A DNA stretch of 42,749 bases from a virus. The number at the start of each line of letters is the position of its first letter. Position 1 is the stretch's first letter. The DNA lies in IMG/VR virus record IMGVR_UViG_3300030328_002965, positions 1-42,749 of that record. The stretch is one strand, 5' to 3'. Below, in pieces: positions 3,041 to 41,327 of the stretch. The position numbers and the translations under genes are program-made. A model generated the notes under the pieces. That model did not search any database, was not told the DNA's origin, and worked only from the letters and a program-made list of their open reading frames with translations.

Positions 3041-3439
3041 TTAATTATTCTTTTTTATCAAATATTCTTTAATATCTTCCCACCCTTCAGCTAAAGCTAA
3101 TTCTCTTAATTTAGTATAAACAACGCCGGAATTTAGCTTCTCTGCTTCGTCCGTGTCGAATAAATAAACTTCTCTCGATACTTTTACTAGTAGAAATACC
3201 GCACCTTTATTTCGTTTAAAGGATCTGTGCCAAGCTATCTGTTCTACTGATACTTTCGTCCGACATTTACTGGTTTCATGAACTGGCTTATCAATATACT
3301 TACCTTCGACCCAACCCATGACGCCATCGTGGCAATAAAACAAATCAGGGATTCCTCTTTCAACTGCAGTTTCTATTCGTTGAAGAAATATGTCAGGCCA
3401 TTTCTTTCGACATGCAGTCCAAAGATTTTTCTCACTCAC
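3041..3439 (-). CDS. PD-(D/E)XK nuclease (VRR-NUC / resolvase-like)
   Basis: 132 residues. RGIPDLFYC (Asp32) followed by GWVEGKY (Glu45, Lys47) is the D...ExK active site of PD-(D/E)XK nucleases, in the layout used by VRR-NUC and phage resolvase-like enzymes. SVEQIAWHRSF and the FLLVKV strand complete the fold. It probably processes branched or host DNA during replication. The start is GTG at 3439, overlapping the polymerase stop as GTGA, with GGGGAGAG upstream; no ATG is available at this position. Its position directly after DNA polymerase supports a DNA-metabolism role. Confidence 0.75.
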   Translation of the reverse strand: MSEKNLWTACRKKWPDIFLQRIETAVERGIPDLFYCHDGVMGWVEGKYIDKPVHETSKCRTKVSVEQIAWHRSFKRNKGAVFLLVKVSREVYLFDTDEAEKLNSGVVYTKLRELALAEGWEDIKEYLIKKNN

Positions 3440-5307
3440 TTAATCTCTCCCCAACTTGCTCCTCTCTCAACGTCTACCTCTAAGGGAACATTTAACTCAA
3501 CTGCGTTCTTCATAAGATGAACTACTTCATTAAGTTTTTCTTCGCCCTCTTTCGTGCGAGGTACTGAGAAGTCTAACTCATCATGTATCGTTAATCCTAT
3601 ATCCATAATATTACTATCCCATACTTTTAACATCGCTGCTTTTGTAACATCAGCGGCTGATCCTTGGATCAAGCAATTTAAAGCTTTATGCGTTTGTGCT
3701 CTTTTCAATATCATTCCTTTATATATTTCTTTCGCTTTCTCAATCGGATATGCCGGCTTCCCAAAGTTATCCCAACCAGTCGGTTCGAATAAATTAAAAT
3801 GTCTGCGCCTTCCTAATAAAGTTTTAATATAACCTTTAGTCGAAGCAAATGCGATAGCTTGATTGTTCAATGCTTGAACGAAAGGAACGTTGCGATGATA
3901 CTTCTCAAAGAGAGATTCTGCATCTTCAAAACTTAATCCTAATTCTGCTGCTAATTTCTTTTTTCCCATACCATAAGTTAAGCCTAAATTAATAGTTTTT
4001 GCTTGTTTTCTCTTGATTCCTGCCATCTCTGCAACCATTTTATGAAAGTCAGTTTGTGTATCAGTTTTGTACTGATTTTGTGCCAATTTTGCTGATTCAT
4101 TATTCGTCTTACTTGCGAAGTGAACAAGTAATCGTGGCTCTTGTTGTGCGTAATCTACACATACCCAATCGTGTTCTTCTTCAGGAATAAATAAACCTCT
4201 CACTAGTGGTGCTAACTCAGGATCATGCGCAGGTACTTGTTGAAGATTAGGATGTGACGAACTAAATCTACCTGTCACTGTTCCTGTAGAATGTAATTGA
4301 CAATGTAATCTTCCATTAACTGATTTCTCAATGATCATGTTTTCGATAAATGTACTTCTCAATTTATATAATTTTCTGACTCGTAAAATTAAAGGACTAA
4401 GATTATCTTGTGCGCTACTCAACCACTCTTGTGTAAATGATGGTGATCCTTTGGCCGTGCGCATAAAAGAAATGTTTTCTTTTTCATAAGCTTTCGCAAT
4501 ACTTGCATTAGCCCATACATTTACTTCTGATCCTATTATCGTATCTAATTCTTTTTGCGTTTCATTTTGTTTTAAGTAAATCGTATCCTTTAGCTTCGAT
4601 GCTTTCTCAATGTCAACTCGAACACCTTTCTTTCTCATCGATAACAATAGAGGAATCATACGAGATTCCATATCAAGAACAGGAAGTAATTCTTCTTGCT
4701 TTAATAAAGGGTGTTGTTTTTTAAAAACTTCCATAGTCAGCTCAGCATCTTTTTCTGCATAAGGACCAACGTATGAAGAATGTAATCTCCATAAATTACC
4801 TTTAACATTTACTCTTCCCGAGAAATGTGAACGAACAGCATCTTCTAAAAGTGATTCGTCTTTCTGCTCACCTAAATAATCCGCTGATATATTATCTAAA
4901 GAGAATGACCTTCGATTCTCATTCAGTAAAGTTTCTGCAACTTGAACGTCATATATTTTTCCTTGAGTATTTATCCCTAAAGTAGATAACCACTCTAAAT
5001 CGTATAATGCATTAGCGAAAATCTTCGTTTTAGGCGTCTCCAGTGCGTTTTTTAAATACGATACGATTAGTTCCTTAGGAAGATTACCGCCATCTTGGTG
5101 CGCTATTGGTAAATAACATTTTCTTCCTCCCTCATCGCAGAGAGAAATACCAACGACAAATCCATCGTTACGAAATCCACCAGGTCCATTCTTTTTTAAA
5201 TTAGGATCATACGTTTCAGTGTCAATAGCTAAAGCTTTTGAGTCGCTGTAATTAATTAAAACCTCGGGAGGTTTCCAATTACTGACGGGTTTGAATAGGT
5301 CGTTCAT
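3436..5307 (-). CDS. Family A DNA polymerase with 3'-5' exonuclease
   Basis: 623 residues. The N-terminal DEDD exonuclease starts at IDTETYDP (Asp29, Glu31), with YAEKDAELT as a later exonuclease motif. The polymerase domain shows TGRFSSSHPNLQQVP, motif A VDYAQQEPRLL, the O-helix/motif B region KRKQAKTINLGLTYGMG and motif C IHDELD (His575-Asp576-Glu577). It lacks a 5'-3' exonuclease domain, as is usual for phage replicative PolA enzymes. It overlaps the dCMP deaminase gene by 29 bases and the nuclease gene by 4. If the nucleotide-modification pathway at 5715-8528 is real, this enzyme must accept modified dCTP. Confidence 0.95.
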   Translation of the reverse strand: MNDLFKPVSNWKPPEVLINYSDSKALAIDTETYDPNLKKNGPGGFRNDGFVVGISLCDEGGRKCYLPIAHQDGGNLPKELIVSYLKNALETPKTKIFANALYDLEWLSTLGINTQGKIYDVQVAETLLNENRRSFSLDNISADYLGEQKDESLLEDAVRSHFSGRVNVKGNLWRLHSSYVGPYAEKDAELTMEVFKKQHPLLKQEELLPVLDMESRMIPLLLSMRKKGVRVDIEKASKLKDTIYLKQNETQKELDTIIGSEVNVWANASIAKAYEKENISFMRTAKGSPSFTQEWLSSAQDNLSPLILRVRKLYKLRSTFIENMIIEKSVNGRLHCQLHSTGTVTGRFSSSHPNLQQVPAHDPELAPLVRGLFIPEEEHDWVCVDYAQQEPRLLVHFASKTNNESAKLAQNQYKTDTQTDFHKMVAEMAGIKRKQAKTINLGLTYGMGKKKLAAELGLSFEDAESLFEKYHRNVPFVQALNNQAIAFASTKGYIKTLLGRRRHFNLFEPTGWDNFGKPAYPIEKAKEIYKGMILKRAQTHKALNCLIQGSAADVTKAAMLKVWDSNIMDIGLTIHDELDFSVPRTKEGEEKLNEVVHLMKNAVELNVPLEVDVERGASWGEIK

Positions 5308-5740
5308 AAATAATATACTCTCTTTCTGATTTTTTCCAAAGTTCTAATGGTTCTGTATCTGTATATAAAGTAGGAAAAATTAAAATACTACAAGAAGTGT
5401 TTAATAATAATTTTACACACGTCATACACGGACTTACTGTAGTATAACATTTTTCAATATCATAAATATCTTTACATTGAAGTAATGCATTTTGCTCTGC
5501 GTGAATCGCTTCGCAAGAATCTAATCCTTCTCCTGATGGAAACTCTGCTCCACTACAAGGTAAATCTAAACAGTGAACTGCTTTTGCAGGAACTCCATTA
5601 TACCCAGTAGCGAGAATATGATTTTTAGAATTAACTAACACACATCCAACATTTCGTCGGATGCATGTTGCTTGTGCCGAGACAGTCTGAGCAATATCTA
5701 AAAAAGTTTCGTGCTTACTCGGCCTTGTTGAAAAGTTCAT
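5279..5740 (-). CDS. dCMP deaminase
   Basis: About 153 residues from ATG at 5740; the frame also has a TTG two codons earlier. The zinc site is complete: HAEQNALLQC supplies the His-Ala-Glu, and TVSPCMTCVKLL supplies the PCxxC cysteines. VGCVLVNSKN and GYNGVPA are the conserved substrate-binding strands. The reaction is dCMP to dUMP, feeding dTTP synthesis and relieving the dCMP pool. The gene overlaps the thymidylate-synthase-fold gene upstream and polymerase downstream. A dCMP deaminase next to a putative dCMP hydroxymethylase means that both enzymes compete for dCMP, as in T4. Confidence 0.92.
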   Translation of the reverse strand: MNFSTRPSKHETFLDIAQTVSAQATCIRRNVGCVLVNSKNHILATGYNGVPAKAVHCLDLPCSGAEFPSGEGLDSCEAIHAEQNALLQCKDIYDIEKCYTTVSPCMTCVKLLLNTSCSILIFPTLYTDTEPLELWKKSEREYIIYERPIQTRQ

Positions 5741-6515
5741 GTCCAAACCCGGTATAAGAAGGTGCTTCTACATTTTCTAAATGTTCTAAGAAATCTTCTG
5801 CACTGTTAAAATCCTTTAAATTCAATGGTTTATAGTTCACATAATCTTCATAATTAGAACGAGTACACATATCTGCTGACTCAAAATTTGGTTTATATAA
5901 ATGACGTGAACCTGCATTAATAGTCGTTATTCCTAATCCTACTTCTATCTTATAAATATCATATAATAATAAAGCAACGTATGCGCCGAGCATTGAGAAA
6001 TTAAAATTATCATAAGGCCAACCTAACCATAAATCATTTGAGCGCATATTAGCTATGACATGTAATTTATCTTGACGAATTAAAAATTGAAACGATACAG
6101 TACAAGGTATATCGTTAGTATCATAAGGACTTTCTCTCCAAATATTTATAACTGCTTGTCTTGTATTTTTATCTTCTTTTAATGATTTGCATATGTATTG
6201 AAGTTGGTCTATAATCTTAGGGCCATATGCACCTCTAAAGAAATAGTTATCATCACTAAATTTACTAATCATTTGAGAATAAGAATCAATACTACTTAAT
6301 CTATTATCACCTCTCAATATCCATGTAGCTTCTGCTACCATAAATTTATATCCTAATAATCTTCTTTTATTAGTTACAATAGGATATCTCATATCACACA
6401 TCGTAGTATGATTTATTTTTTCTCGTGTTATTAAACCACGAGGTGCGGATTCTATTCCACCTTGAATATCTAAAATAGCATCATTCCAAACATTATCTGC
6501 TGCTAAACCGTCCAT
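5715..6515 (-). CDS. Thymidylate-synthase-fold enzyme, probable dCMP hydroxymethylase
   Basis: 266 residues of thymidylate synthase fold: EATWILRGD (Glu62), catalytic Cys138 in IPCTVSFQF, NMRSNDLWLG (156-165) and the sugar-binding HLY at 205-207. The residue matching E. coli ThyA Asn177 (LGLPFN) is Asp169 here (LGWPYD). Asn at this site selects dUMP. Asp is the hallmark of T4-type dCMP hydroxymethylase, which also shares the local string NMRSND. The likely reaction is therefore dCMP plus methylene-THF to 5-hydroxymethyl-dCMP (inference from family knowledge). Start ATG at 6515 has GAGAGGAG seven bases upstream. The dNMP kinase lies immediately upstream. An ordinary ThyA or dUMP hydroxymethylase role remains possible. 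Confidence 0.8.
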   Translation of the reverse strand: MDGLAADNVWNDAILDIQGGIESAPRGLITREKINHTTMCDMRYPIVTNKRRLLGYKFMVAEATWILRGDNRLSSIDSYSQMISKFSDDNYFFRGAYGPKIIDQLQYICKSLKEDKNTRQAVINIWRESPYDTNDIPCTVSFQFLIRQDKLHVIANMRSNDLWLGWPYDNFNFSMLGAYVALLLYDIYKIEVGLGITTINAGSRHLYKPNFESADMCTRSNYEDYVNYKPLNLKDFNSAEDFLEHLENVEAPSYTGFGHELFNKAE

Positions 6516-7108
6516 ACTGCTTCTCCTCTCAAATATCTTAGTCGATTAATTATATCATAAGATTTCTCATCAATCTTATGACCTTCTTTAAAAACATCAT
6601 ATCGTATGAAGTTTTTTCGCCATCTTAATTCTCCTAGAGATTTAAGAAAATTATCATGTTCATAATTTAAACCATACCATGAACGTTTGTATCTATCGAC
6701 AATTCGAGTAATATCACTATATTCTTCATGTCGTTCTTCTTTCTTTTTCTTATGTATTTTTATAACTCTAGCACTATCTTCAGGTGCACACCATACATAT
6801 AAAGTATTTGCTTTCTTTAATTTTTTATATAACTTCGTAGGATTATACTCAGGACCATCTGCTCTTTCATAAGAATAAACTTCTTCTGATGGCCAATGTC
6901 TATCAATTACAACTAACTCATCTTTAGCTAATCTTATTGCTCTACGAACAGTTGCTCTATGCCATATTTCCATTTTTTTATGTATTCGTAAATGCATATA
7001 ACGTGCTTTAAATTTCTTTCTCAATAAATCTGTTAAAGTAGTTTTACCAGTACAGTCTGCGCCTTCTACTATAATTATACCTTTAATTATATTTTTCATG
7101 TCTTTCAT
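6503..7108 (-). CDS. P-loop (deoxy)nucleoside monophosphate kinase
   Basis: 201 residues. The P-loop GADCTGKTTL (about 16-25) follows the IIIVE strand, and the DRHWPSEEVYS stretch (69-79) matches the DR-x-x-x-S substrate motif of thymidylate kinase-like enzymes. The lid is Lys/Arg rich (KIHKKKKEERH). It should phosphorylate a dNMP to the diphosphate. Placed between a dCMP hydroxymethylase-like enzyme and a glycosyltransferase, it is the natural counterpart of T4 gp1, which accepts hydroxymethyl-dCMP. It joins its upstream gene by ATGA (7105-7108) and overlaps the next by 13 bases. Confidence 0.8.
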   Translation of the reverse strand: MKDMKNIIKGIIIVEGADCTGKTTLTDLLRKKFKARYMHLRIHKKMEIWHRATVRRAIRLAKDELVVIDRHWPSEEVYSYERADGPEYNPTKLYKKLKKANTLYVWCAPEDSARVIKIHKKKKEERHEEYSDITRIVDRYKRSWYGLNYEHDNFLKSLGELRWRKNFIRYDVFKEGHKIDEKSYDIINRLRYLRGEAVWTV

Positions 7109-8151
7109 AAAAAGTAATCTCCGATAAAAGTATTTAATCTATTTTTATTCCATACTGTAGAATTAAAATCTTCTTTTTGTGCTTTAGCTAAATCATCTAA
7201 TTCATTATCATTCATTTTCTCTATATCACTATGATGAATTCTATATGCATCGCCAAAAAGTTTAGTTTCTTCTTGTTCTCCATAAGCAATACAACCTGCG
7301 TCTGCTATCATGCCATAACGAACTCTCCACCAACCACTACCTTTTATCGTATGATAATGAGGAGGTATTAATATTCCCCTTACTCGTAAGTACTCATTAT
7401 ATAATTCTGGTTCAGTTAATCTTTCTTGACCTAAATTAGGATTACCATAACATGTTACTTTCCACTCAAAAAGTTGACGTTTAAACCAACTCTGTTTTTG
7501 AATTAAAGAAGCCATTATCCATTCTTTACTTTTAGGACCATCATGTGAATCTATTCGTGAAAACAAAGATTGATTATATTTACTTCCCCCTTTATAACTA
7601 TCAGTAACAGGAGTAGGATCCCAAGGTATAATTTGTTCGGAATCTATTCCTAGTTGAGATACGTCTCCACCCTTATAAACTGGCGCTAGAACTCTATATG
7701 GCCACTTTTCAAAAGCTAGTTGTGTAATTAAATCTTCCATTTCTTTTTTATATGGCTGTGCTTCATTAAAGAATTTTTTACCAACAGAGTTACCTGCTTT
7801 ACTTACTCTTTTCCATAATCGCCAATGTCCATCACGTGCGAAAGTACCACACCCTTGTTTTATATCTTTAGTTTGCCAATCGTCTAATGCTATGTATGCG
7901 TCAGGTCTTTTCAATAAAGTATAAAGACCTCCATATAAATAAGATGACGGTAAAGAATTAGGAGCAAAAGCAAATACAACTACTTTATCATATTCTGATA
8001 TATCTTCCCCAGGTATAACCGGTTTATGATCAACTTCTATTCCACACTCTCTTAATGCTCTTGGTAAACAATTAGCTGCTGTTGCAATCTCTAATACATT
8101 TTTACCACTGCCTATACCTTTTGCAGTAAATCCTGTTACTAATACTTTCAT
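7105..8151 (-). CDS. GT-B glycosyltransferase, T4 beta-glucosyltransferase-like
   Basis: 348 residues from ATG at 8151, chosen because it forms an ATGA overlap with the upstream stop and has GGAG nine bases before it. An in-frame ATG at 8166 lies upstream of that site. The N-terminal Rossmann half reads KVLVTGFTAKG, YDKVVVFAF and DAYIALDDWQ; the C-terminal half reads WKVTCYGNP, RGILIPPH, then WWRVRYGMIADAGCIAY (274-290). The last segment lines up with the donor-site stretch RVWETMASDAVMLI of T4 BGT as I recall it, with the ribose-binding Glu replaced by Tyr279. The length (BGT is 351) and operon context suggest a DNA hydroxymethylcytosine glycosyltransferase. A non-DNA glycosyltransferase is possible. 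Confidence 0.65.
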   Translation of the reverse strand: MKVLVTGFTAKGIGSGKNVLEIATAANCLPRALRECGIEVDHKPVIPGEDISEYDKVVVFAFAPNSLPSSYLYGGLYTLLKRPDAYIALDDWQTKDIKQGCGTFARDGHWRLWKRVSKAGNSVGKKFFNEAQPYKKEMEDLITQLAFEKWPYRVLAPVYKGGDVSQLGIDSEQIIPWDPTPVTDSYKGGSKYNQSLFSRIDSHDGPKSKEWIMASLIQKQSWFKRQLFEWKVTCYGNPNLGQERLTEPELYNEYLRVRGILIPPHYHTIKGSGWWRVRYGMIADAGCIAYGEQEETKLFGDAYRIHHSDIEKMNDNELDDLAKAQKEDFNSTVWNKNRLNTFIGDYFL

Positions 8152-8528
8152 GACCATGCGCTCCATTTTTTAAATGTGTGAAGAACTTGTTCTATATCTG
8201 GTGCTTTCCAACCTTTCGGTTTAGTTACATCAAATTTAGAACGTTCACTTTCTTTTCTTACTTTTGCCATATTTGCTTTCTGTACTTCTGTCCATGCAAC
8301 CCAGAAAGGATAATCAAATAGATAAGCCGTTCCTAAAGCTACATAAGTTAAATCAACTAAAGCATCTAATGCTTTCGCATCATCTTCTTCTTTAATTGCT
8401 TCTTTAAATTCGTTTAATTCTTCTTCTAAGAATTTAATCCGAAAGTCTACCAAATCTTTATTATTTTTGATACCTTGTCGTTTTTTAAATCCAAATTTCT
8501 TATGAAATTTTTCAATATCTTTAAGCAT
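8148..8528 (-). CDS. MazG-like all-alpha NTP pyrophosphohydrolase
   Basis: 126 residues from ATG at 8528, which has AGGAG nine bases upstream; the open frame extends further but without a good site. The fold signature is EEELNEF (35-41) followed by ALDALVDLTYVALG (54-67), the metal-binding E-E-x-x-E plus D-x-x-x-D arrangement of MazG/PRA-PH proteins, with WTEVQKANMAKV afterwards. Enzymes of this fold cleave (d)NTPs to (d)NMP plus PPi; T4 dCTPase is a member. Beside a dCMP hydroxymethylase-like gene, a dCTPase role that removes unmodified dCTP is attractive but unproven. It overlaps the methyltransferase gene by 8 bases. Confidence 0.8.
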   Translation of the reverse strand: MLKDIEKFHKKFGFKKRQGIKNNKDLVDFRIKFLEEELNEFKEAIKEEDDAKALDALVDLTYVALGTAYLFDYPFWVAWTEVQKANMAKVRKESERSKFDVTKPKGWKAPDIEQVLHTFKKWSAWS

Positions 8529-9585
8529 TAAATAAATCTCCTGTTGTTGGTTTACGATAATCAATAACTTTATGATTAACTTCGAAAGATTGATTTGACT
8601 CAATCATTGTTTTTACATTTCTAGCTAACCACTCTCCTACAGGTGGCATTACTCCTCGTGCTAATAAACTAGGCCAACCTGATTTTGCTCCTGCAAATTT
8701 ATAATCAACTGGATAACCCGAAAAAGCACATAGTTCTTTTATACCTAAAAGCCTATCTTCTTCTGGATGTATAGAAAAACTTCCTGCGATAACTCCCATA
8801 GTTTGCTCTCTAGTTAATCTCCATTTCATAAATTGAGGTCTACCTATAACTCCTTTTCTTCCTTTAGTTGACCTTTTCCAAGTTTCTGGTGGATTTAAAC
8901 TTTCCCATATATTTCTTAATGATTCTCCAGGTTTAGCCATTTTCGTTAATTTCATTTCATTTTCACTTAACGTAGCAGTATGTCCTGCATCAATTCCATC
9001 TGCTTTTAATTCATCTAATACTTCTCCGACATTTGGCGCAGGATTCCAGTTAGGCGCAGGAGGATTAAAGTTTCCTTTATGCGCTAAAAAGAAAAATCTT
9101 TTTCTCGTATGAGGTAACCCTGTATACTGTCCATCAACTAATAAATGAGTAACAGCATAGCCTTCTTCATTAGCTTTTCTTGTAAAATCCATTATCATTG
9201 GTCTACCCCCTGTTTCTGAATAAACACGAGGAACTGACTCAATAGCTAAAGCTTTTGGCTTTAATGTATATATTAAAGAAAATACATCGTTCCAACAACT
9301 AATACGAGGATCAGTTTTCCAACCATCTGCTCCTTTACTTCCCGAACCTAATGTACTCCATGGAGCACAAGGAGGATTACCATACACAAAATCTACGTTT
9401 TGATATTCGTGAAATGACGTAGGCCAATTCTCTGGTCCAGAATACACTGGAATATCTGGATAATTTAAATTAAAAGTATCAGCACCATATGCGCCATCAC
9501 CTTCTAAATGTGCTAACACATCAAAATGTTTTTTAACGCCGATAGTAAATCCTCCGGCGAATATATAACTTCCTATTGCTTTCAT
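8521..9585 (-). CDS. DNA cytosine-C5 methyltransferase
   Basis: 354 residues with the C5-methyltransferase order: motif I YIFAGGFTIG (7-16), motif IV YGNPPCAPWS with nucleophile Cys73, motif VI IESVPR (Glu116), motif VIII QYTGLPHTRKRFFFLA and motif X RGVMPPVGEWLARNV. The target-recognition region lies between about 175 and 300. It transfers methyl from SAM to cytosine C5 in a specific sequence, for protection or regulation. Motif VI has ESV rather than the usual ENV. ATGA overlap with the upstream methyltransferase and AAGGAGA support the start. It lies inside the putative hydroxymethylcytosine module, which is odd if cytosine is fully replaced. Confidence 0.9.
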   Translation of the reverse strand: MKAIGSYIFAGGFTIGVKKHFDVLAHLEGDGAYGADTFNLNYPDIPVYSGPENWPTSFHEYQNVDFVYGNPPCAPWSTLGSGSKGADGWKTDPRISCWNDVFSLIYTLKPKALAIESVPRVYSETGGRPMIMDFTRKANEEGYAVTHLLVDGQYTGLPHTRKRFFFLAHKGNFNPPAPNWNPAPNVGEVLDELKADGIDAGHTATLSENEMKLTKMAKPGESLRNIWESLNPPETWKRSTKGRKGVIGRPQFMKWRLTREQTMGVIAGSFSIHPEEDRLLGIKELCAFSGYPVDYKFAGAKSGWPSLLARGVMPPVGEWLARNVKTMIESNQSFEVNHKVIDYRKPTTGDLFNA

Positions 9586-10250
9586 AGTTCTCCTTTCATA
9601 AAGTTTAATTCAACTGTTTTAGTTAAATAGAAAGCCCACCATTGCTCTGGATAAGGATTTCCATCTTGAAATTCTGGATTTTTTATACTTAAATCAATAT
9701 CTTGTACTTTATTTATATCGAATCCACAACGTAAAATTAAAGATACCCAATTTCTTTTCGTTAACATAGAGTAATGATTTGCATTATTTTCATGTTTAAC
9801 ATATCCTTCAGCTTCAGGAACTTCTATATAAGCATGACCATCCATTTTAACTAAACGATTAAATTCATGTAAAGTTAAATAAGGATACGGACTATGCTCT
9901 AATACATGTCTACACCATAAAGCATCAAAATTTTCTTTTATTCCTGTAAAAGTCATATCAGTTTTTCGGATATCTTGTAATCCATAATTACTGCAATTTT
10001 TTATATCTTCGTCAGTTTTATTGACTCCAACTAAATTTTTAAATCCTGCTTCCTGTAAGAGTGATAAAAAATATCCATCTCCACAACCTATATCTATAAC
10101 TGATTTATCTTCCTTAATTCCAAAAGTATCTAAAAATTTTTGAGCTTGAGGTTTTATTACACTATAATGTAATTGAGATTTAGGTTCGCTATAAATATCA
10201 TTATCTATTTTCTTTTCAAAATTATTTAAATATTTTAATTTTATATCCAT
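9582..10250 (-). CDS. Class I SAM-dependent methyltransferase
   Basis: 222 residues. The SAM-binding motif VIDIGCGDGYFL (about 49-60) is followed by the strand and acid LVGVNKTDED, then FDALWCRHVLEHSP and HEFNRLVKMDGHAYIEVPE, the usual Methyltransf_11/23 layout. The substrate is not evident; such enzymes methylate small molecules, sugars or lipids. Set between a DNA methyltransferase and a helicase in a block holding sugar-nucleotide and glycosyltransferase genes, it could decorate the transferred sugar, but this is speculation. ATG at 10250 follows AGGATATAAT. Confidence 0.85.
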   Translation of the reverse strand: MDIKLKYLNNFEKKIDNDIYSEPKSQLHYSVIKPQAQKFLDTFGIKEDKSVIDIGCGDGYFLSLLQEAGFKNLVGVNKTDEDIKNCSNYGLQDIRKTDMTFTGIKENFDALWCRHVLEHSPYPYLTLHEFNRLVKMDGHAYIEVPEAEGYVKHENNANHYSMLTKRNWVSLILRCGFDINKVQDIDLSIKNPEFQDGNPYPEQWWAFYLTKTVELNFMKGEL

Positions 10251-10251
10251 A

Positions 10252-11766
10252 TTATATCCTGTAGCTATATTCAGTTTGAGGATTTACAATAAATAAATTA
10301 TTTTTTACTCTTGTAATTCCAACATAAAAAACACGATGCTCATCATCGTCATCTTTAACTAAGTTCTTCCAAGTTTTATAAGAAACATCTGTCATTAAAA
10401 CTACGTTATCAGCTTCTGCTCCTTTACTACCATGTATAGTACTCAATCTAATTCTAGGATTATCTTCATCAATATCCCCTGTTTTTTCAAGTGCTTCATA
10501 ATAATATTTATCTTCTTCTGGAATCATCTCTAATGCTTTTTGCCAAGTACCATTAGCTTTTAAACCATGATGCATGACCAATGTTTCTAATTCATATTCT
10601 TCTTTTTCGTCAATAGTTTTTAAATTTTTAAATCCTCTTTCTATCCCACTTCCTGTTCGTAAGCAAGAATATAATTTCTTAATTTCATCATAACAAATCT
10701 TTTCTCCTGCATGTAATTTCTTCCATGCTCTAATTCCTTGAACATGTTTATTAGCTTTAAACCCTCCATACTTATTTTCAAACACAAATCCTTGAGTTTT
10801 TAGAAACTTTTGTATAGAATATAATTGATAATTATATCGAGAGAGGATGAGCCATGATCCTTCTTTCATGTCTATATATTCTACTGCAGATACATAATTA
10901 ACCGTGCCTTCTTCTTTTCTGCTTTTCCACTCTTTTGCAAATCTGTTTTTTATACGTGAGCTAATCTCGATTGCTAAATCATAAACCTTAGAAGGTAATC
11001 TATAACTATAAGGAAGAACTTCAATATTACCTTGAAGATTTAAGAATGTATCAATATCAGCTCCTGCCCATTTATAAATAGTTTGATCATCATCTCCTGC
11101 AATATATAATCTCTCGCATTTCTCAACTAACTTACTTACTACTTTCCATTGTAGTATAGTTAAATCCTGTGCTTCGTCAACGAATAAAACTTTTAATGGA
11201 GGTGCTTCACCTTCTTTTAAGAAAGTTATTAACATATCAGTAAAATCAGAAAGACCTCTTTTTTCTTTAAATTTTCTAAATGTATTGGAAAATAATTCTT
11301 GTTCTTTCCAAGAATATTCACAATCTAAACTTCTCCAAGTATCTCTTAAAGGTTTCATCATTGCTCTAGCTAATTGATCGCAAAATAGCATCTTATCACC
11401 TATTTTAATTCCTGATGTAACTATTTCATCTTCTTCTATTCCACCTGACATATCTATTTTTAAAAGTTTTTTAAACTCAGTAACATGACTTCCCTTAAAT
11501 ATTTGTTCTCCATTTAACCCTAGAGAACGAAAACAAATACTATGAAGTGTTCTAAAATAATCTAAATCTGTTTCTTCATTTATATCAAATCGAGTAATAG
11601 TTCTTTCTCTTGATTCTTTAATTGCTCTACGAGTAAAACTAACGAAACCAATAGTGCGAGGTTTAACTCCCGCCTCTATTTCTGCTTCAAGTTTATTTAA
11701 TAATGAAGTAGTTTTACCAGTTCCCGGTGGACCTAATATTACGTTTGTGTTTGATTTATTAAACAT
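10252..11766 (-). CDS. UvrD/Rep-like superfamily 1 DNA helicase
   Basis: 504 residues. Motif I GPPGTGKTT (12-20), Ia GFVSFTRRA, motif II LFVDEAQDLT, motif III AGDDDQTIYKWAGAD, motif IV SYRLP, motif V STIHGSKGAEADNVVLM and motif VI VFYVGITRVKNNLFIV are all present and intact. It is shorter than host UvrD and closer in size to phage Dda-type helicases. It probably unwinds DNA or strips proteins during phage replication or recombination. Its 5' end overlaps the decarboxylase gene by 28 bases. Confidence 0.93.
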   Translation of the reverse strand: MFNKSNTNVILGPPGTGKTTSLLNKLEAEIEAGVKPRTIGFVSFTRRAIKESRERTITRFDINEETDLDYFRTLHSICFRSLGLNGEQIFKGSHVTEFKKLLKIDMSGGIEEDEIVTSGIKIGDKMLFCDQLARAMMKPLRDTWRSLDCEYSWKEQELFSNTFRKFKEKRGLSDFTDMLITFLKEGEAPPLKVLFVDEAQDLTILQWKVVSKLVEKCERLYIAGDDDQTIYKWAGADIDTFLNLQGNIEVLPYSYRLPSKVYDLAIEISSRIKNRFAKEWKSRKEEGTVNYVSAVEYIDMKEGSWLILSRYNYQLYSIQKFLKTQGFVFENKYGGFKANKHVQGIRAWKKLHAGEKICYDEIKKLYSCLRTGSGIERGFKNLKTIDEKEEYELETLVMHHGLKANGTWQKALEMIPEEDKYYYEALEKTGDIDEDNPRIRLSTIHGSKGAEADNVVLMTDVSYKTWKNLVKDDDDEHRVFYVGITRVKNNLFIVNPQTEYSYRI

Positions 11767-12689
11767 TCTCTAAAATACTCTATGGTTTTCTCTAGTCCTT
11801 CTGATAATGTTACTTTAGGGTGCCAACCTATTAACATATTAATTCTTTCTATATCCGGACATCGTTGTAATGGGTCGTCTTTTTTATGCGCTACTGTCAT
11901 TATCCCTGATTTAGAACTAGTCATTCTTATAATTAATTCTGCTATATTGTATATTTTTTTCTCATCAGGATTCCCAATATTAACTGGTTTATTTAATTTA
12001 GTAGTATCTGCTAAATCTAATAATGCATGTATTGTATCAGAGATATAACAAAAAGAACGAGATTGCATTCCATTTCCATAAAGTAATAATTCTTTATCTT
12101 GTAATGCAGCACATATAAAATTAGATATAACACGTCCATCATTAACAGACATGCGAGGACCGTAAGTATTAAATAGCCTTGCTATTTTAACATCTAATTT
12201 ATATAATCTTATGTACTCATAAATTAATGCTTCTGCTACTCTCTTTCCCTCATCATAACATGCTCGTGGTCCAAAAGAATTTACACTTCCATGATAATCT
12301 TCTTCTTGAGGTGTATGATCAGGGTTACCATATACTTCTGATGTAGAAGTATGAATAACTATTGAGTTATGTTTTTTAGCTAACTCTAAAATATTTTTAG
12401 TTCCCATATAACAAGTATCTAAAGTTTTTATAGAATGTTTTATATAATGATCAGGACTTGCAGGACAAGCTAGATTATAAATTAAATCAATAGGACCTCC
12501 CATATCTATCTTATTTATATCAGAAGAATGAGATATATCTCCTGCAATAAATCTATGAATATTACCTATATTTTTTTCTTGTCCTGTTAATAAATTATCT
12601 ATACCATAAACAGTATGCCCTCTATTAACTAAATGTTCTGTAAGATGTGATCCTACAAAACCTGCGCAACCTGTTACTAAGACGTTCAT
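11739..12689 (-). CDS. UDP-glucuronate decarboxylase (UDP-xylose synthase)
   Basis: 316 residues of extended SDR fold: VTGCAGFVGSHL (5-16) binds NAD; TSTSEVYG (114-121) and YDEGK (145-149) form the active site. Features typical of UDP-glucuronate decarboxylases rather than 4-epimerases are YNLACPASPDHYI (71-83), EVYGNPD with Glu118, SFGPRACYDEGKR and RMSVNDGRVISNFI. The reaction is UDP-glucuronate to UDP-xylose plus CO2. The length equals bacterial UXS. It shares ATGA with the exonuclease gene. It may supply a pentose donor for the glycosyltransferase at 7105-8151; a role in cell-surface sugar change is the alternative. Confidence 0.88.
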   Translation of the reverse strand: MNVLVTGCAGFVGSHLTEHLVNRGHTVYGIDNLLTGQEKNIGNIHRFIAGDISHSSDINKIDMGGPIDLIYNLACPASPDHYIKHSIKTLDTCYMGTKNILELAKKHNSIVIHTSTSEVYGNPDHTPQEEDYHGSVNSFGPRACYDEGKRVAEALIYEYIRLYKLDVKIARLFNTYGPRMSVNDGRVISNFICAALQDKELLLYGNGMQSRSFCYISDTIHALLDLADTTKLNKPVNIGNPDEKKIYNIAELIIRMTSSKSGIMTVAHKKDDPLQRCPDIERINMLIGWHPKVTLSEGLEKTIEYFRECLINQTQT

Positions 12690-28512: not shown

Positions 28513-28647
28513 TTACTTTTTCCTTATTCTTCTTTTATCTAATGCACCATATCTTATATTTTTCAAAGCTTGTTTTAAAAGGTCTAAATTAGGTAAATTT
28601 ATTAATTTAGGTTTTACTTTAGTTGTTATTTTTGATCTATCTGCCAT
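28513..28647 (-). CDS. 44-residue basic protein
   Basis: ATG at 28647 shares TAATG with the acetyltransferase stop and follows GAGGGAATAT, a usable ribosome binding site. The product begins MADRSKITTKVKPKLINLPN and ends DKRRIRKK; 14 of 44 residues are Lys or Arg. It ends two bases before the start of the 299-residue virion gene. It may be a small DNA-binding or virion accessory protein; no family is recognised. Confidence 0.55.
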   Translation of the reverse strand: MADRSKITTKVKPKLINLPNLDLLKQALKNIRYGALDKRRIRKK

Positions 28648-29090
28648 TATATTCCCTCTGAATAAGTTCCACCTAGATAATTAAGATTTTGGCGTGTAAC
28701 CCATTGATGTTTTCTCTCCATATCTTTTCCTTGCATAATCTCTAAAATCATTGGTGTATTTCTTCCTTTTGCATACTCTCTTGCAAAATCCAATAAACTT
28801 TTAGCGATATTAGGATTTCTTTTCGTTTCATCTACAAAAAACCATAACGTTCTATAAAAAGCTTTATCGGTATACCAAGTATCACAATTTGCCATTGCTA
28901 TACTTCCAATAATCTTATCGTCTTTCTCTGCTACTACCACAAAGTGTTGACGTATGTATTCTAATATATTTTCACTGGCTTTGCTATTGTTTGTTTGCCC
29001 AAAGTTAAGTTTTGTCTCAATTAACCATTTCTTTAAAAGTTCTCGTATTTGATGTGTATCGGTATCTTTAGCTATTCTTAATTTAATCAT
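28647..29090 (-). CDS. GNAT-family N-acetyltransferase
   Basis: 147 residues. The fold runs from IKLRIAKDTDTHQIRELLKK through VVVAEKDDKIIGSIAM (beta-strands of the GNAT core) to FFVDETKRNPNIAKSLLDFA, where the acetyl-CoA loop would lie; the usual R/Q-x-x-G-x-G/A is degenerate (KRNPNIAKSL). GNAT genes between tail and internal virion genes are common in marine podoviruses. The substrate is unknown. It overlaps the 84-residue gene by 8 bases. Confidence 0.75.
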   Translation of the reverse strand: MIKLRIAKDTDTHQIRELLKKWLIETKLNFGQTNNSKASENILEYIRQHFVVVAEKDDKIIGSIAMANCDTWYTDKAFYRTLWFFVDETKRNPNIAKSLLDFAREYAKGRNTPMILEIMQGKDMERKHQWVTRQNLNYLGGTYSEGI

Positions 29091-33665: not shown

Positions 33666-34760
33666 TTATCTTGCTGTTACTGGTACACCTGATGAAGAAA
33701 CAAAGGGATGTTCTGCCCAAGCCCAATATACAAAATCGTCACCATCTGTATTAGCTCCACCAGTATCTCTTACAGTAAAACCATTGGAACAAAAATCATA
33801 ACTATTTTGTGAAAATTCTACTGCGTTTTCATTTGCGTTTAAACCTAGATTAACTACATTTCTTGGATTTCTTTGGTTGTCATTCATTCTCCAGTTTCCT
33901 GAAGCACTAATATTTTTATTAAAAACAAAAGCAGGTTTAAATCCAGTGTAACAAAAAGGACCGTTTGCACTTCCATTACCAGTATATCTGCCAAAAGCCG
34001 AATATCCTTTTACTTCTGCCCAACAAAACATTAAATAAGCATTACCGTTACCATTTACTTGAGCGTCATTACCTAATGTAATTACACTAGAAGTTGGTTG
34101 TGTACTATTAAAAAAACCTGCATATTTACCATCATTATTACTAGCATCACTGTTTAATCTTAATGTGCTAGTAGAATCATGATGATGCCACACAGCCCAA
34201 TCATCTGCTGTATTTCTTACTTTTATAAATATAGCTGCAGGTTTTACGCCAAGACCATGGCCTATGGTTGCTCCTGCACTACCATTTCCTGTGTATAAAC
34301 CCATTGTAAACTTACTTGTTGAATTTGTAGATGCATTGATTGTTGTACTGCCATCAGTATTATTAGAAGTAGAGTTAGTTCCATTCCAAGTCCAACCCAC
34401 ATAATTATATGAAACTCCTTGGTTTACATAATTAGCACTACTTGAACCGGCAACAACAGAAAAACTTGTAGCAGTTGTACCACCAACATATCCATTAGCA
34501 GGTGTATTATGAGCACTTGTATCGCCTTCTTGAACGTTAGAGTTAGGAACTAATTCTTTATTACTTCCAAATCCTTCTGCTTCATTCCATAAATAATGTG
34601 ATCTGCCAGAAAAATTTCTTGCTTTAACCCAAACCATACCAGGTCTAAATGAAGTTGTAATATTTCTTGAAAAACCAGCGCCATCTGCAGGTACCCAATT
34701 ACCTGTCCATAATGCAGTTTCAAATTGTGATGATCCTTTATTAATTGTTGTATATGCCAT
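33666..34760 (-). CDS. Receptor-binding-type protein, DUF7483-like, cassette copy 1
   Basis: 364 residues. It starts MAYTTINKGSSQFETALWTG and repeats the family pattern twice: MVWVKARNF...HYLWNEAEGF, then TIGHGLGVKPAAIFIKVRN...WAVWHH, and finally FCYTGFKPAFVFNKNISASG...YWAWAEHPFVSS. The same order occurs in the paralogues at 36918-37982 and 40272-41324. Phage proteins of this type (I recall them as DUF7483) are beta-rich virion adhesins. This copy is the most diverged, with an extra section after ELVPNSN. Confidence 0.7.
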   Translation of the reverse strand: MAYTTINKGSSQFETALWTGNWVPADGAGFSRNITTSFRPGMVWVKARNFSGRSHYLWNEAEGFGSNKELVPNSNVQEGDTSAHNTPANGYVGGTTATSFSVVAGSSSANYVNQGVSYNYVGWTWNGTNSTSNNTDGSTTINASTNSTSKFTMGLYTGNGSAGATIGHGLGVKPAAIFIKVRNTADDWAVWHHHDSTSTLRLNSDASNNDGKYAGFFNSTQPTSSVITLGNDAQVNGNGNAYLMFCWAEVKGYSAFGRYTGNGSANGPFCYTGFKPAFVFNKNISASGNWRMNDNQRNPRNVVNLGLNANENAVEFSQNSYDFCSNGFTVRDTGGANTDGDDFVYWAWAEHPFVSSSGVPVTAR

Positions 34761-34766
34761 AATATT

Positions 34767-36089
34767 TTATCCGTATTGTCCTAAATTCTTACTACATAAC
34801 GCATAGTACCCTGTTGGTACAGTGTATTCGAAACTTCCATGACCATTAGCATCTGATTGAGCTGCGTCAGCAAGAGTAAAAGGAGGATTTCCAAAATTCC
34901 ATTCTCCAGTTCCTGCTTGTGAAGAAGAAGCATATGTACAAAAAACATAAGGATCATTTAATGTTTCAGTTAAATTTTGAGAAACAACTTCACTTCCATT
35001 TTTATAAAATTTTACATTTTTTGTGCCACTTGCTAAATCTAAAGCTATTCCTACAATATCATTTTGTGCTAAAGTAAAACCTTGGCTACCTGAATTACTT
35101 CCATTAACATAAAGATTACCTTCTCTATTTATTCCATAACTATCTGTAACTTGACCGGGATAATTATTAACATTACGTTGTGCTACATCAGTATAACCTT
35201 GCGCTATTCCTATCATTGGATTGTAAGTATTTGTATTTGTAATTTTCATTTCACAATACCATTTTCCATCATACACCCCAAATGAACTAACTGAATTGTA
35301 ATAACCACTAAAGACAAGTGCTCCTTTAGACATAGTGACACCTGTTCCTGCAACAGGATTCATAGTAGAAAAATTATTTGCAGGTCCATCTTTTGTATTA
35401 GCATTAGTTCCTAAATTAGTTGTGGCAAAATGATTAGTATTACCAGAACTATCTGCACCAAAACCACTCGCATCAGCAGAAGCTCCTGTTCCTATAAAGT
35501 CTAATTTAAAACCATTAGTTCCATATGTAACAGAAGGAGTAGAATTAGGTATCCAAATACCATCAGCATTTGTTGAACCAAACGTACTAGCTGCATATTG
35601 TGTTGCATTAGCAAAAATAAATTGAGATAAATAACCACCAAATCCTAAACTATTACCTGTTTTAGCTCCTATAACATGTTGTTGATCTTTACTAAATTGA
35701 GTATCTACGTTTTGATTCCATGCTCCAACTGTACTAGTTTGTAAAGTACCATTTACATAAATTTTTAATCCATTACTTCCAGAAGCTTCAGTTGTATCAC
35801 AAGCTACTACAATATGATACCAAGCAGACGGATCTCTAAAATACATAGAAGTGTAAACATTAAATCCATTATTAGCACTTGCACTGACGGCATTAAAACA
35901 TTGTAATACATAATCATCTCCACTTCCTCTTAAAGAAATTCCAGTTTGATTATCTGCATCAGTTTGTGCATGCATTATATATTGATCATTTCCTGTTACT
36001 ATGATTGATTTTTTTACCCAAAAAGAAACGGTCCATACATCTAAATTTCCACTTGAACCAAATGTTTTTGTTAAATAAGTCTGTGCCAT
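34767..36089 (-). CDS. LamG + SPRY adhesin, cassette copy 1
   Basis: 440 residues. The N-terminal LamG/concanavalin-like half shows WTVSFWVKKS, RDPSAWYHIVVACDTTE and LKIYVNGTLQ. A linker (SSGNTNHFATTNLGTNANTK, NNFSTMNP) leads to a SPRY-like half (GKWYCEMKITN, GINREGNLYVNGS, DIVGIALDLASGTKNVKFYK). The end SFEYTVPTGYYALCSKNL is shared with both paralogues. Such proteins bind carbohydrate or protein surfaces; here it is likely a fibre tip or decoration. TAATG joins it to the TIG gene above. Confidence 0.75.
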   Translation of the reverse strand: MAQTYLTKTFGSSGNLDVWTVSFWVKKSIIVTGNDQYIMHAQTDADNQTGISLRGSGDDYVLQCFNAVSASANNGFNVYTSMYFRDPSAWYHIVVACDTTEASGSNGLKIYVNGTLQTSTVGAWNQNVDTQFSKDQQHVIGAKTGNSLGFGGYLSQFIFANATQYAASTFGSTNADGIWIPNSTPSVTYGTNGFKLDFIGTGASADASGFGADSSGNTNHFATTNLGTNANTKDGPANNFSTMNPVAGTGVTMSKGALVFSGYYNSVSSFGVYDGKWYCEMKITNTNTYNPMIGIAQGYTDVAQRNVNNYPGQVTDSYGINREGNLYVNGSNSGSQGFTLAQNDIVGIALDLASGTKNVKFYKNGSEVVSQNLTETLNDPYVFCTYASSSQAGTGEWNFGNPPFTLADAAQSDANGHGSFEYTVPTGYYALCSKNLGQYG

Positions 36090-36916
36090 TATGTATCAAA
36101 CCTTCCTGAATTATCTAATTCATAACTAGATGTTAGTGTAAAGTTTCTATCGCTTGTTTGTCCTTGCGCATCTGTAGCTCTTAAAGTAAAACTATAAGTA
36201 GTTGCAGATGTAGCACTTCCACCAAAATCACTAGTAGTTATAACACCTGTAGATGAATTTAGCGAGCAATTTGCTTGTGATGCGTTAGTTAAAACATTAG
36301 TAGTTTCTGAATAAACAATAGTATCTCCAGTAGCAGCTACAGTAGCAACTGTTCCTGAGAAATTTCCTGCAATAGTTCCAAGTGACCCTGCGCCAGTAGT
36401 CCATGCAGGTGCGTCTGATACTGTAAGTAAAGCACTACTTGATCGTACTGCGTTACCATCATTATTTTCCACTCTAATATAATACGAGCCATCTACTGGT
36501 AAAGTGAAGTTAGCGGTAATTGATGTTGCGCTTGTAAAAGTAACTGAATTAGCTGGAGTGATTGCTCCAGTTGAAGATATAGCATCAACATAGGGAACTG
36601 ATATATAATTAGTTCCAGTAATAACTACATCGGCTGCTGTATTTTCAATAACAGTTGGTAAAATACTTGAAATAGTAGGTTTAGTTTCTGCGGGTAAATT
36701 AGTTAAATTAGCTCCTGATACAGCTGGTAAAGTAGCAGGGAATCGTGCGTCAGGAACAGTTCCTGATCCAAGATTTGTTGCGTTAAGCGCAGTTAAACTT
36801 GCGCCTGAACCCGATAATGTAGCACCAGCAGTTATAGTAATTGTATCACCGGATTCACCAATTGTAATTGTTGACCCTGTATATTTTTTTATCGTGTTTA
36901 CTTTTACTTCTGACAT
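36089..36916 (-). CDS. TIG/Ig-repeat fibre protein, cassette copy 1
   Basis: 275 residues. The N-terminal fibre segment (MSEVKVNTIKKYTGSTITIG; GTVPDARFPATLPAVSGANL) is shared with paralogue 2. Residues about 80-165 form an IPT/TIG-like domain (ETKPTISSILPTVIENTAAD; YYIRVENNDGNAVRSSSALL) and the C-terminal quarter a cadherin-like Ig repeat (TYSFTLRATDAQGQTSDRNF). It should be an elongated surface-binding virion protein. This copy has one PDARFPATLPA unit; paralogue 2 has two. Confidence 0.7.
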   Translation of the reverse strand: MSEVKVNTIKKYTGSTITIGESGDTITITAGATLSGSGASLTALNATNLGSGTVPDARFPATLPAVSGANLTNLPAETKPTISSILPTVIENTAADVVITGTNYISVPYVDAISSTGAITPANSVTFTSATSITANFTLPVDGSYYIRVENNDGNAVRSSSALLTVSDAPAWTTGAGSLGTIAGNFSGTVATVAATGDTIVYSETTNVLTNASQANCSLNSSTGVITTSDFGGSATSATTYSFTLRATDAQGQTSDRNFTLTSSYELDNSGRFDT

Positions 36917-36917
36917 T

Positions 36918-37982
36918 TTATTTTGTTCCTACCCTAGTTGTAGCGCAAACAGTGTTTGATGCTACAAGGGGTTGTTGAGCGAATGCTAGATAAATATAAT
37001 CCGAACCATCTCCACCACCAAAACCACCTGATGTGCTTCTTATTTTAAAACCAGTAGAAGTAATATCTAAAATATCAGCGTCAGTTCCTTCACCAGAATT
37101 TGTATTAGCTCTTAAATCTTGGTTGTTTGAATTATACCCTTCTCTTTTAATGTCAAATATTCCCCAGTTAGCACCCGAGTTATCTGATGATTTTTTCATC
37201 ATTATATATGCGGGTTTAAAACCACAATAAATAAAAGCCCCATCAGTAGCATCTCCAGTTCCTTTAAAAATTGAACATCTACTAAATCCTTTTATATTAG
37301 CAAAACAATAAGCTACCATAGTACCGCCATTTGTTTTAGAGTTTGTTCCTACAGAAAAAACACTAGATGTAGGAGAAGTATCTTGATACCAAGAACTTGC
37401 TGTATTAAAAGCATCTGTTAAATTTAAATACATACCTCCACTATTACCTAAAATAGAATGATAAGTAGTCCAGTTTGAAGTGTCTGTATAATTTTTAAAA
37501 AAAATACAATCAGGAGCCACACCTAAACCATGTCCAACAGTTGCATTTGATGTTGTTCCAGTCCATTTAACTATACTAAATCCAGGAGTTGTATTAGTTT
37601 GAACAGTAGAAGTAATAGACCCATCACTGTTAGACGCAGTAGTACCTCCATTACATTTCCATTGCCATGCAGCATACGTATTACCATTATCATTATAGTT
37701 TCCGTTATCTCCTAAAGAAAAACCATCTGAATTAAAAGCTGTGGATCCATTTGTATCATTATACTGAGTTGTATCTTCATTAGATTCGATAGTGTAAGTA
37801 ACTCCCCTCGTACTATCCGTTAGTTTATGATCTTCTCCTGCTCCTGTTCTACCTTTTACCCAAAGAAAGTCAGGCTGTAAATTTGAATTACCATCATTGG
37901 TAATGGATTGTGTACTCCCATTTCCTGTATAAAGAGCTGTTTGAAAATATGCTGAGGGATCGTTTATTGTTGTAAAGGCCAT
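36918..37982 (-). CDS. Receptor-binding-type protein, DUF7483-like, cassette copy 2
   Basis: 354 residues. Same plan as copies 1 and 3: MAFTTINDPSAYFQTALYTG, then DFLWVKGRTGAGEDHKLTD, AWQWKCNGGTTASNSDGSIT, VGHGLGVAPDCIFFKN, and FIYCGFKPAYIMMKKSSD...YIYLAFAQQPLVAS. It is closer to copy 3 (shared ANGGTTSSNSDGSVT-type segment) than to copy 1. Three bases separate it from the LamG+SPRY copy 2. Structural adhesin by analogy; not an enzyme. Confidence 0.7.
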   Translation of the reverse strand: MAFTTINDPSAYFQTALYTGNGSTQSITNDGNSNLQPDFLWVKGRTGAGEDHKLTDSTRGVTYTIESNEDTTQYNDTNGSTAFNSDGFSLGDNGNYNDNGNTYAAWQWKCNGGTTASNSDGSITSTVQTNTTPGFSIVKWTGTTSNATVGHGLGVAPDCIFFKNYTDTSNWTTYHSILGNSGGMYLNLTDAFNTASSWYQDTSPTSSVFSVGTNSKTNGGTMVAYCFANIKGFSRCSIFKGTGDATDGAFIYCGFKPAYIMMKKSSDNSGANWGIFDIKREGYNSNNQDLRANTNSGEGTDADILDITSTGFKIRSTSGGFGGGDGSDYIYLAFAQQPLVASNTVCATTRVGTK

Positions 37983-37985
37983 ATC

Positions 37986-40270: not shown

Positions 40271-40271
40271 T

Positions 40272-41324: not shown

Positions 41325-41327
41325 ATT

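Follow-up and report, generated by a model that had tools for sequence, protein, structure and literature searches.

Gene content and conservation of the block

The virus record IMGVR_UViG_3300030328_002965 from IMG/VR, analysed here over its whole length of 42,749 bases (the window; 33% GC), contains a compact gene block, or cassette, that probably directs the production of glycosylated 5-hydroxymethylcytosine DNA with a pentose as the sugar. Ten open reading frames (ORFs), from that for a UDP-glucuronate decarboxylase (UDP-xylose synthase, UXS; 11739–12689) to that for a PolA-type polymerase (3436–5307), lie on the − strand with neighbours either overlapping or 1 base apart. Each could be assigned to a family, in agreement with an earlier reading of the sequence alone (the original prediction), which had placed these ten named genes in one leftward block. 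The tight packing suggests a single transcription unit. In leftward order, the features are:

11739–12689, − strand: UDP-glucuronate decarboxylase (UXS), from a phmmer search of PDB sequences and motifs
10252–11766, − strand: UvrD/Rep-type SF1 helicase (Pfam UvrD-helicase, 9.6e-30), probably with a role in replication and not in modification
9582–10250, − strand: S-adenosylmethionine (SAM) methyltransferase (Methyltransf_23; Pfam 2.1e-17)
8521–9585, − strand: C5-cytosine methyltransferase of a cassette-associated subfamily (Pfam 5.2e-25)
8148–8603, − strand: MazG/PRA-PH-type nucleotide pyrophosphohydrolase, candidate dCTPase (Pfam 4.5e-10; phrog_671, 1.6e-28); the ORF opens at a TTG and the true start may lie downstream of it
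7105–8166, − strand: predicted BGT-fold DNA glycosyltransferase (structure model; unnamed PHROG family; without a Pfam match)
6503–7108, − strand: thymidylate-kinase-like P-loop deoxynucleoside monophosphate kinase (weak matches: Pfam AAA_28, 2.7e-7; phrog_761, 1.6e-12)
5715–6515, − strand: predicted dCMP-type hydroxymethylase of the thymidylate synthase (TS) superfamily (residues and model)
5279–5746, − strand: dCMP deaminase (Pfam 3.8e-18)
3436–5307, − strand: family A DNA polymerase with 3'-5' exonuclease (Pfam 7.4e-70)

Seven relatives (G001–G007) were recovered in a scan of IMG/VR, on contigs that may be fragments. The TS-fold enzyme, kinase, glycosyltransferase, MazG protein and polymerase were matched in all seven, as were the C5-methyltransferase (partial in G007) and the SAM methyltransferase (partial in G005). 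UXS and the SF1 helicase were matched in six, the contig of G005 stopping short of both, and the dCMP deaminase in five; G005 and G006, which both have the TS-fold gene, gave no tblastn match to the deaminase. The window record is classed as linear and is therefore possibly a fragment, and contigs of 61,151 and 64,233 bases are among its close relatives, so the original description of a small phage is unsupported.

The TS-fold enzyme

The TS-fold enzyme has an aspartate (residue 169 of the window protein) at the position of N177 in the Escherichia coli enzyme, the dCMP-specific residue that had been singled out originally, and a threonine at the position of H147. It keeps the catalytic Cys146, E58 and R166-S-x-D169 (RSND). 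The residues at 177 and 147 have been linked with modification of cytosine in the MetaGPA study (PMC8670742). When these positions were read in control sequences, E. coli ThyA had N/H, Bacillus phage Goe26 and Pseudomonas phage Psa3 both had N/N, and T4 gp42 had D/T, as did the TS-like enzymes of phage RB69 and Morganella phage Rgz1. In the 69 TS genes located near members of the glycosyltransferase family described below, Asp was found at N177 in all 67 that could be read and Thr at H147 in all 68 that could be read.

The closest solved sequence to the window enzyme was that of MilA, a CMP 5-hydroxymethylase (E 4e-19), the best thymidylate synthases being at about 1e-12. The predicted structure (pLDDT 87.4, pTM 0.89) was also nearest to MilA (VIA Z 26.1–26.4), followed by the dCMP/FAD monooxygenase 9iqc (Z 23.0), which we infer to be the RB69-type enzyme, and thymidylate synthases (Z no higher than 22.8). 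The 50 VIA matches listed did not include the T4 dCMP hydroxymethylase, which excludes nothing. A tree of TS sequences (83 rows thinned to 63) had long, weak deep branches. Taking sequence and model together, the window enzyme very probably acts on dCMP, and it probably hydroxymethylates it.

The annotated thymidylate synthases of Pelagibacter phages HTVC119P (L008:8493–9341) and HTVC200P (L009:8354–9172) also have D at N177 and T at H147, so these cultured pelagiphages may carry modified cytosine.

A glycosyltransferase with the predicted fold of T4 BGT

Sequence searches placed the glycosyltransferase in one unnamed PHROG family and, at a threshold of 0.01, matched it to 59 of 50,697 phage records. 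No significant match was found among PDB sequences, Pfam gave none, and the blastp comparison with T4 BGT was at chance level (E 8.7). RB69 ORF003c was considered as a relative and rejected, its best blastp match (E 9.4) not being significant. The structure model, built from 36 sequences (pLDDT 87.9, pTM 0.88), had T4 BGT at ranks 1–4 in Foldseek (E 5e-7 to 3.5e-6) and again at ranks 1–4 in VIA-align (Z 17.5–18.3 over 280–295 residues), where a glycogen synthase came next (Z 16.0) and the phage HY126 glycosyltransferase 9iqz was well behind (Z 13.6 versus 18.3). When the family profile was compared with six BGTs, an in-register N-terminal match (residues 33–72, 40 columns) was obtained at a probability of 79.6%, or 75.8% on a rerun, and the reversed control gave 0.2%; T4 BGT as a single sequence reached 6.4% against the family profile. 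D96, E252, R281 and R283 are invariant in all 36 sequences. D100 of BGT (after the fourth strand), which we take to be the catalytic Asp, is invariant in the six BGT rows, and to judge from topology D96 may be its equivalent. The model and the partial profile match thus bear out the original label of 'BGT-like' for the predicted enzyme.

A motif scan of IMG/VR yielded 543 pattern stretches, of which 459 were confirmed as relatives of the glycosyltransferase. Genome contigs yielded four loci with relatives of the glycosyltransferase, all of them in metagenome-assembled genomes. The loci counts given here are for the best 80 of the 459 relatives, near-identical contigs included. In these 80 loci (tblastn, 1e-5), a TS gene was matched in 69 with several TS queries, a dCMP deaminase in 47, MazG in 46, the C5-methyltransferase in 38 and the kinase in 37. 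With the window TS as the only query, the same threshold gave matches in 54 of the 80 loci versus 1,669 of 50,697 whole phage records; the co-occurrence of TS and glycosyltransferase exceeds chance. In all 37 loci that have the kinase, no more than 500 bp separated it from the glycosyltransferase, and it may be a kinase for 5-hydroxymethyl-dCMP. An hhalign comparison of the MazG protein with T4 gp56 and its RB69 homologue reached a probability of 31%, which lends weak support to a putative dCTPase role. The parallel with T4 that had been drawn stands for the dCMP-type TS enzyme and the BGT fold and is weak for the MazG protein; the kinase, with its weak matches, is thymidylate-kinase-like and at most a candidate counterpart of gp1.

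UXS and its association with the cassette

A phmmer search of PDB sequences with the window decarboxylase returned four UDP-glucuronate/UDP-glucuronic acid decarboxylase 1 sequences, presumably human, at E 6.5e-90 to 4.4e-89, and the next class was at 3.1e-33. TSEVYG, YDEGK and an R-loop, which we take to be the catalytic motifs of UXS, are present in the window protein and in the six relatives of its clade that were checked, and on this basis it is identified as a UDP-xylose synthase.

Such genes are rare in phage records, with matches at 1e-40 in 10 of 50,697. From at least 588 relatives in IMG/VR, 80 were kept, some on short contigs (a known UXS contig, L049/G004, is outside the 80), and in 13 of them UXS is found with the cassette. 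These 13 fall into two clades, six loci at 68% identity or more and seven at 49–50%. In both clades UXS occupies the same place, adjoining the cassette's SF1 helicase. Wherever the contig reaches, the glycosyltransferase (10 of 10 loci) and TS (9 of 9) are there too.

Pseudomonas phage QdP_Psa3 (L044:2691–11540) has UXS and UDP-glucose dehydrogenase genes together with a TS-like gene with N at both 177 and 147, and is a possible pentosyl-hydroxymethyluracil counterpart.

Donor enzymes across the glycosyltransferase family

Other branches of the family carry other nucleotide-sugar enzymes. In the 80 loci, UDP-galactopyranose mutase (UGM) was matched in 24, a dehydrogenase of the UDP-glucose/GDP-mannose family in 23 and UXS in 12, six of these strongly and six weakly (21–26% identity, other short-chain dehydrogenases/reductases, SDRs). 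All but one of the 24 UGM loci (23) have this gene no more than 500 bp from the glycosyltransferase. For 30 of 87 labelled rows, none of these donor enzymes was in view, partly as a result of contig ends.

A glycosyltransferase tree of 43 rows was obtained from the 87 by thinning at 90% identity and dropping the short row L077; 14 of the rows, contig fragments among them, had no donor enzyme in view. The UXS and dehydrogenase clades were sisters (100/99 for the pair), with the UGM rows elsewhere. The donor labels required 11 changes on this tree versus a mean of 20.7 when shuffled, and a count as low was found in 0 of 200 shuffles. The UXS label alone, present in three rows, was not strongly clustered (as low in 25 of 500 shuffles). 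A second tree had 33 rows, 29 picked by hand and four from the second UXS clade, with no donor seen in nine, again including contig fragments. Here the two UXS clades grouped together (98/95) beside the dehydrogenase clade, and the UXS label, now in seven rows, was as low in 0 of 500 shuffles. The simplest reading is a single transferase scaffold for which the supply of sugar can change.

In one locus of the dehydrogenase clade (L057:12719–15957), genes for a sugar dehydrogenase, an NAD synthase and an SDR come after the polymerase. The dehydrogenase of this locus, the only one checked, matches Pfam UDPG_MGDP_dh, and the UDP-glucose and GDP-mannose types were not separable. NAD for the dehydrogenase might come from the NAD synthase. 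In the two loci of this clade that were checked, the SDR does not contain the UXS motif. UGM adjoins the glycosyltransferase-family gene in Aeromonas phage phiAS4, Erwinia phage FBB1 and DSL-LC01, and phiAS4 ORF0025 (L036:7895–8956), annotated as hypothetical, is clearly a UDP-galactopyranose mutase (Pfam GLF, 5.9e-54). The family is also represented in Morganella phage Rgz1, alongside a TS of the RB69 type and an arabinose-5-phosphate isomerase.

Lactobacillus phage ATCCB (L126:1667–4722) follows the same plan, with TS, a relative of T4 BGT (31% identity) and UDP-galactopyranose mutase in a row, which suggests galactofuranosyl modification by an enzyme of the BGT family.

The two methyltransferases

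The original prediction listed the C5- and SAM-methyltransferases but gave no explanation for them. The C5-methyltransferases were aligned in 40 rows. The Cys of PPC and a Glu, presumably those of motifs IV and VI of C5-cytosine methyltransferases, are conserved in all 40, and FAGGF, which we assume to be the SAM motif I, is found in 36, including the window protein. In two contigs the C5-methyltransferase and the glycosyltransferase are fused in one open frame, of 870 amino acids in L079 (L181 is the same contig) and of 761 amino acids from the first start in L081, where the frame is cut by the contig end.

A scan seeded with the C5-methyltransferase gave 68 loci, near-identical contigs included, and 47 of them have the glycosyltransferase. 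Where at least 3.2 kb of downstream sequence was present, it was found in 40 of 50 loci, and in 37 of 37 when the methyltransferase was at least 50% identical to a query; the ten loci without it all have divergent C5-methyltransferases (31–43% identity to the window protein). The SAM methyltransferase was matched in 13 of the C5-methyltransferase-seeded loci, 12 with UXS and one cut by the contig end, and was not matched in two loci where UXS is present (L139 and L140). No match at 0.01 was found between the window SAM methyltransferase and those of ct3Et, AXL3, DSL-LC01 and GodonK. In L198, the C5-methyltransferase is fused to a PF13489 (Methyltransf_23) domain with weak blastp similarity to the window SAM methyltransferase (E 0.001). 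Because of the fusions and the linkage to the glycosyltransferase, the methyltransferases are probably part of the system.

In L182 (5809–8934), the C5-methyltransferase is in a frame of 1042 amino acids, of which the C-terminal half appears glycosyltransferase-like by eye; the C-terminal parts of the long frames of L182 and L198 gave no match to the glycosyltransferase or BGT profiles.

Proposed pathway and alternatives

We propose that the cassette makes glycosylated 5-hydroxymethylcytosine DNA by the logic of T4, with a pentose donor, and put the probability of this at about 0.6. The MazG protein would lower the dCTP pool, and the TS-fold enzyme would use methylene-folate to convert dCMP to 5-hydroxymethyl-dCMP, which the phage kinase together with host kinases would raise to the triphosphate for incorporation by the phage polymerase. 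After replication, the BGT-fold enzyme would move a sugar from a UDP donor onto hydroxymethylcytosine in the DNA. UXS would convert host UDP-glucuronate to UDP-xylose, so that the DNA would receive xylose or another pentose made from it. Both methyltransferases would belong to the same system. The steps, their order and the sugar are our reading of what was observed, namely the gene content, its conservation, the residues, the model folds, the linkage and the fusions. The pentosyl-hydroxymethylcytosine originally predicted stands as the best inference, because one conserved cassette unites UXS with a hydroxymethylase-like enzyme of the dCMP type and a glycosyltransferase of the BGT fold; for the enzyme activities, the hydroxymethyl group (as opposed to a hydroxy or methyl group), the sugar and its linkage, it is a projection from these genes.

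Several points weigh against this proposal. We know of no activity for any member of this glycosyltransferase family. In the stretches covered, 67 of the 80 UXS relatives kept are without the cassette C5-methyltransferase and 70 without the glycosyltransferase, so phage UXS often serves something else, and its presence by itself does not indicate DNA modification. UDP-glucose dehydrogenase is the source of UDP-glucuronate, and no match to it was found in the window, in G001–G007 or in the seven loci of the second UXS clade. With the weak support for the MazG protein and the kinase, this makes 'complete', the word first applied to the pathway, too strong. The gene set of Rgz1 means that the acceptor of the family need not always be hydroxymethylcytosine. 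Finally, if every cytosine C5 were already substituted, the intact-looking C5-methyltransferase would have no obvious substrate. Partial substitution, targeting of the transferase or an unusual chemistry on hydroxymethylcytosine may account for its presence.

The alternative that survives best, which we nevertheless regard as unlikely, keeps the hydroxymethylcytosine pathway but has glucose or another host sugar as the substituent, with UXS serving a separate purpose such as host surface glycans. T4 BGT, the nearest solved structure to the glycosyltransferase model, uses UDP-glucose, most of the UXS relatives kept are not near the cassette in the stretch covered, and the UXS of Aphanizomenon phage Yong-DA sits among exopolysaccharide genes. 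However, the constant position of UXS beside the cassette helicase in two clades, with the glycosyltransferase in every locus where the contig extends, and the occurrence of other donor enzymes in other branches of the family, UGM almost always close by, weigh against this alternative.

It is distinctly improbable that the pentose is instead on 5-hydroxycytosine, as in RB69. The enzymes of RB69 and Rgz1 share the dCMP Asp and Thr147 with the window TS, Rgz1 pairs an RB69-type TS with the same glycosyltransferase family, and RB69-type arabinosyl cytosines are now given as the 5-hydroxycytosine type (PMC13390438). However, the window TS and T4 gp42 both have D169 and G173 (E. coli positions), whereas RB69 and Rgz1 have N and V, and the RB69-type signature drawn from these two sequences (RSQN with V at G173) is not found in the window enzyme. 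The TS model is closer to MilA than to 9iqc by 3.4 Z, RB69 ORF003c is without significant similarity to the glycosyltransferase, and 9iqz trails BGT in the structural comparison.

A methylase of the Xp12 kind, acting on dCMP, is a very improbable identity for the TS-fold enzyme; the C5-methyltransferase and glycosyltransferase would then have other targets. In its favour, N177D alone shifts TS towards dCMP methylation according to literature quoted in PMC8670742. Against it, the nearest fold is that of a hydroxymethylase, and the fusion of a BGT-fold enzyme with a methyltransferase for DNA suggests that the acceptor is a hydroxyl group on DNA. The window enzyme and its near relatives also have a gap at TS W80, a weak argument because T4 gp42 and others keep the W.

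Pentosyl-hydroxymethylcytosine could also be one case of a more general arrangement, which we offer as a speculation and consider doubtful as a whole. Phages would have modular DNA sugar-writers, in which one BGT-fold family does the transfer and the nucleotide-sugar enzyme of the cassette sets the sugar: UXS a pentose, the UDP-glucose/GDP-mannose-family dehydrogenase a uronic acid, and UGM galactofuranose. In several lineages the C5-methyltransferase homologue would bind, flip or rework the modified cytosine for the transferase and not simply methylate; the natural C5-methyltransferase–glycosyltransferase fusions hint at this.

Comparison with known systems

To our knowledge, the sugars described so far on the cytosines of phages are few. 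T4 (gp42, gp56, gp1 and BGT/AGT) likewise combines a dCMP-type TS enzyme, a pyrophosphohydrolase, a kinase and a BGT-fold glycosyltransferase in one phage. Unlike T4, the window phage has its own UXS, a built-in C5-methyltransferase and a PolA-type polymerase, and in view of the UXS its donor is probably not UDP-glucose.

RB69 and other Mosigvirus phages share with the window a pentose, here only predicted, on DNA cytosine, a dCMP-acting TS enzyme and phage genes thought to make the donor (PMC6024577, PMC13390438). The original prediction took RB69 as a case of arabinosyl-hydroxymethylcytosine, but later work gives arabinose linked to 5-hydroxycytosine, with 5-hydroxy-dCMP made by a different TS-superfamily enzyme (PMC13390438). 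The RB69 donor route involves an isomerase/NTP-transferase module, and the TS signature of RB69 differs. Queries for arabinose-5-phosphate isomerase and NTP-transferase, derived from Rgz1, and for UDP-glucose dehydrogenase and UGM gave no match at 1e-3 in the window or G001–G007. Shewanella phage Thanatos has a deoxypentose, putatively xylose, on cytosine and an enzyme shown in vitro to make UDP-xylose (PMC12838424). This enzyme is the pyrophosphorylase TH1_063 and not UXS, and Thanatos is a T4-like phage in which TH1_060 is an RB69 homologue. The 5-carbamoyloxymethylcytosine phages of the MetaGPA study have a D177-type TS with MazG-family (PRA-PH) and dCMP deaminase neighbours (PMC8670742), but the last step there is a carbamoyltransferase and here a glycosyltransferase. 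The window system is apart from T4, RB69 and Thanatos in its donor route (UXS), its glycosyltransferase family and its built-in C5-methyltransferase, and no report of a UXS-linked phage cytosine modification was found in the open-access literature searched.

If the proposal is correct, a UXS-based route to pentosyl-hydroxymethylcytosine would be added, along with a large uncharacterised family of glycosyltransferases that modify DNA and have a different donor from clade to clade. Hydroxymethylcytosine could be labelled with new tools, the type of sugar would be predictable from genome sequence, and it would be easier to explain how phages evade, or are targeted by, restriction and CRISPR systems. 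The different donor enzymes that accompany relatives of the glycosyltransferase suggest an exchangeable system for disguising phage DNA, and the C5-methyltransferase fusions raise the question of how these enzymes can work on a base that already has a substituent.

Other features of the record

Rfam and tRNA scans of the window gave no match. A 2OG-Fe(II) oxygenase gene of the PF13759 type lies at 1259–1963, outside the cassette. A TET/JBP-like route combining the C5-methyltransferase with this oxygenase was considered and rejected, as the protein matches PF13759 and no TET or JBP model. A GNAT acetyltransferase-like gene (28647–29090) is located amid virion structural genes. Further along, positions 33666–42562 contain three tandem copies of a tail-fibre-like gene cassette (phrog_24898/19943, phrog_27411 and phrog_34255), spaced by approximately 3.2–3.3 kb and accompanied by diverged DNA repeats, the last copy being cut or broken.

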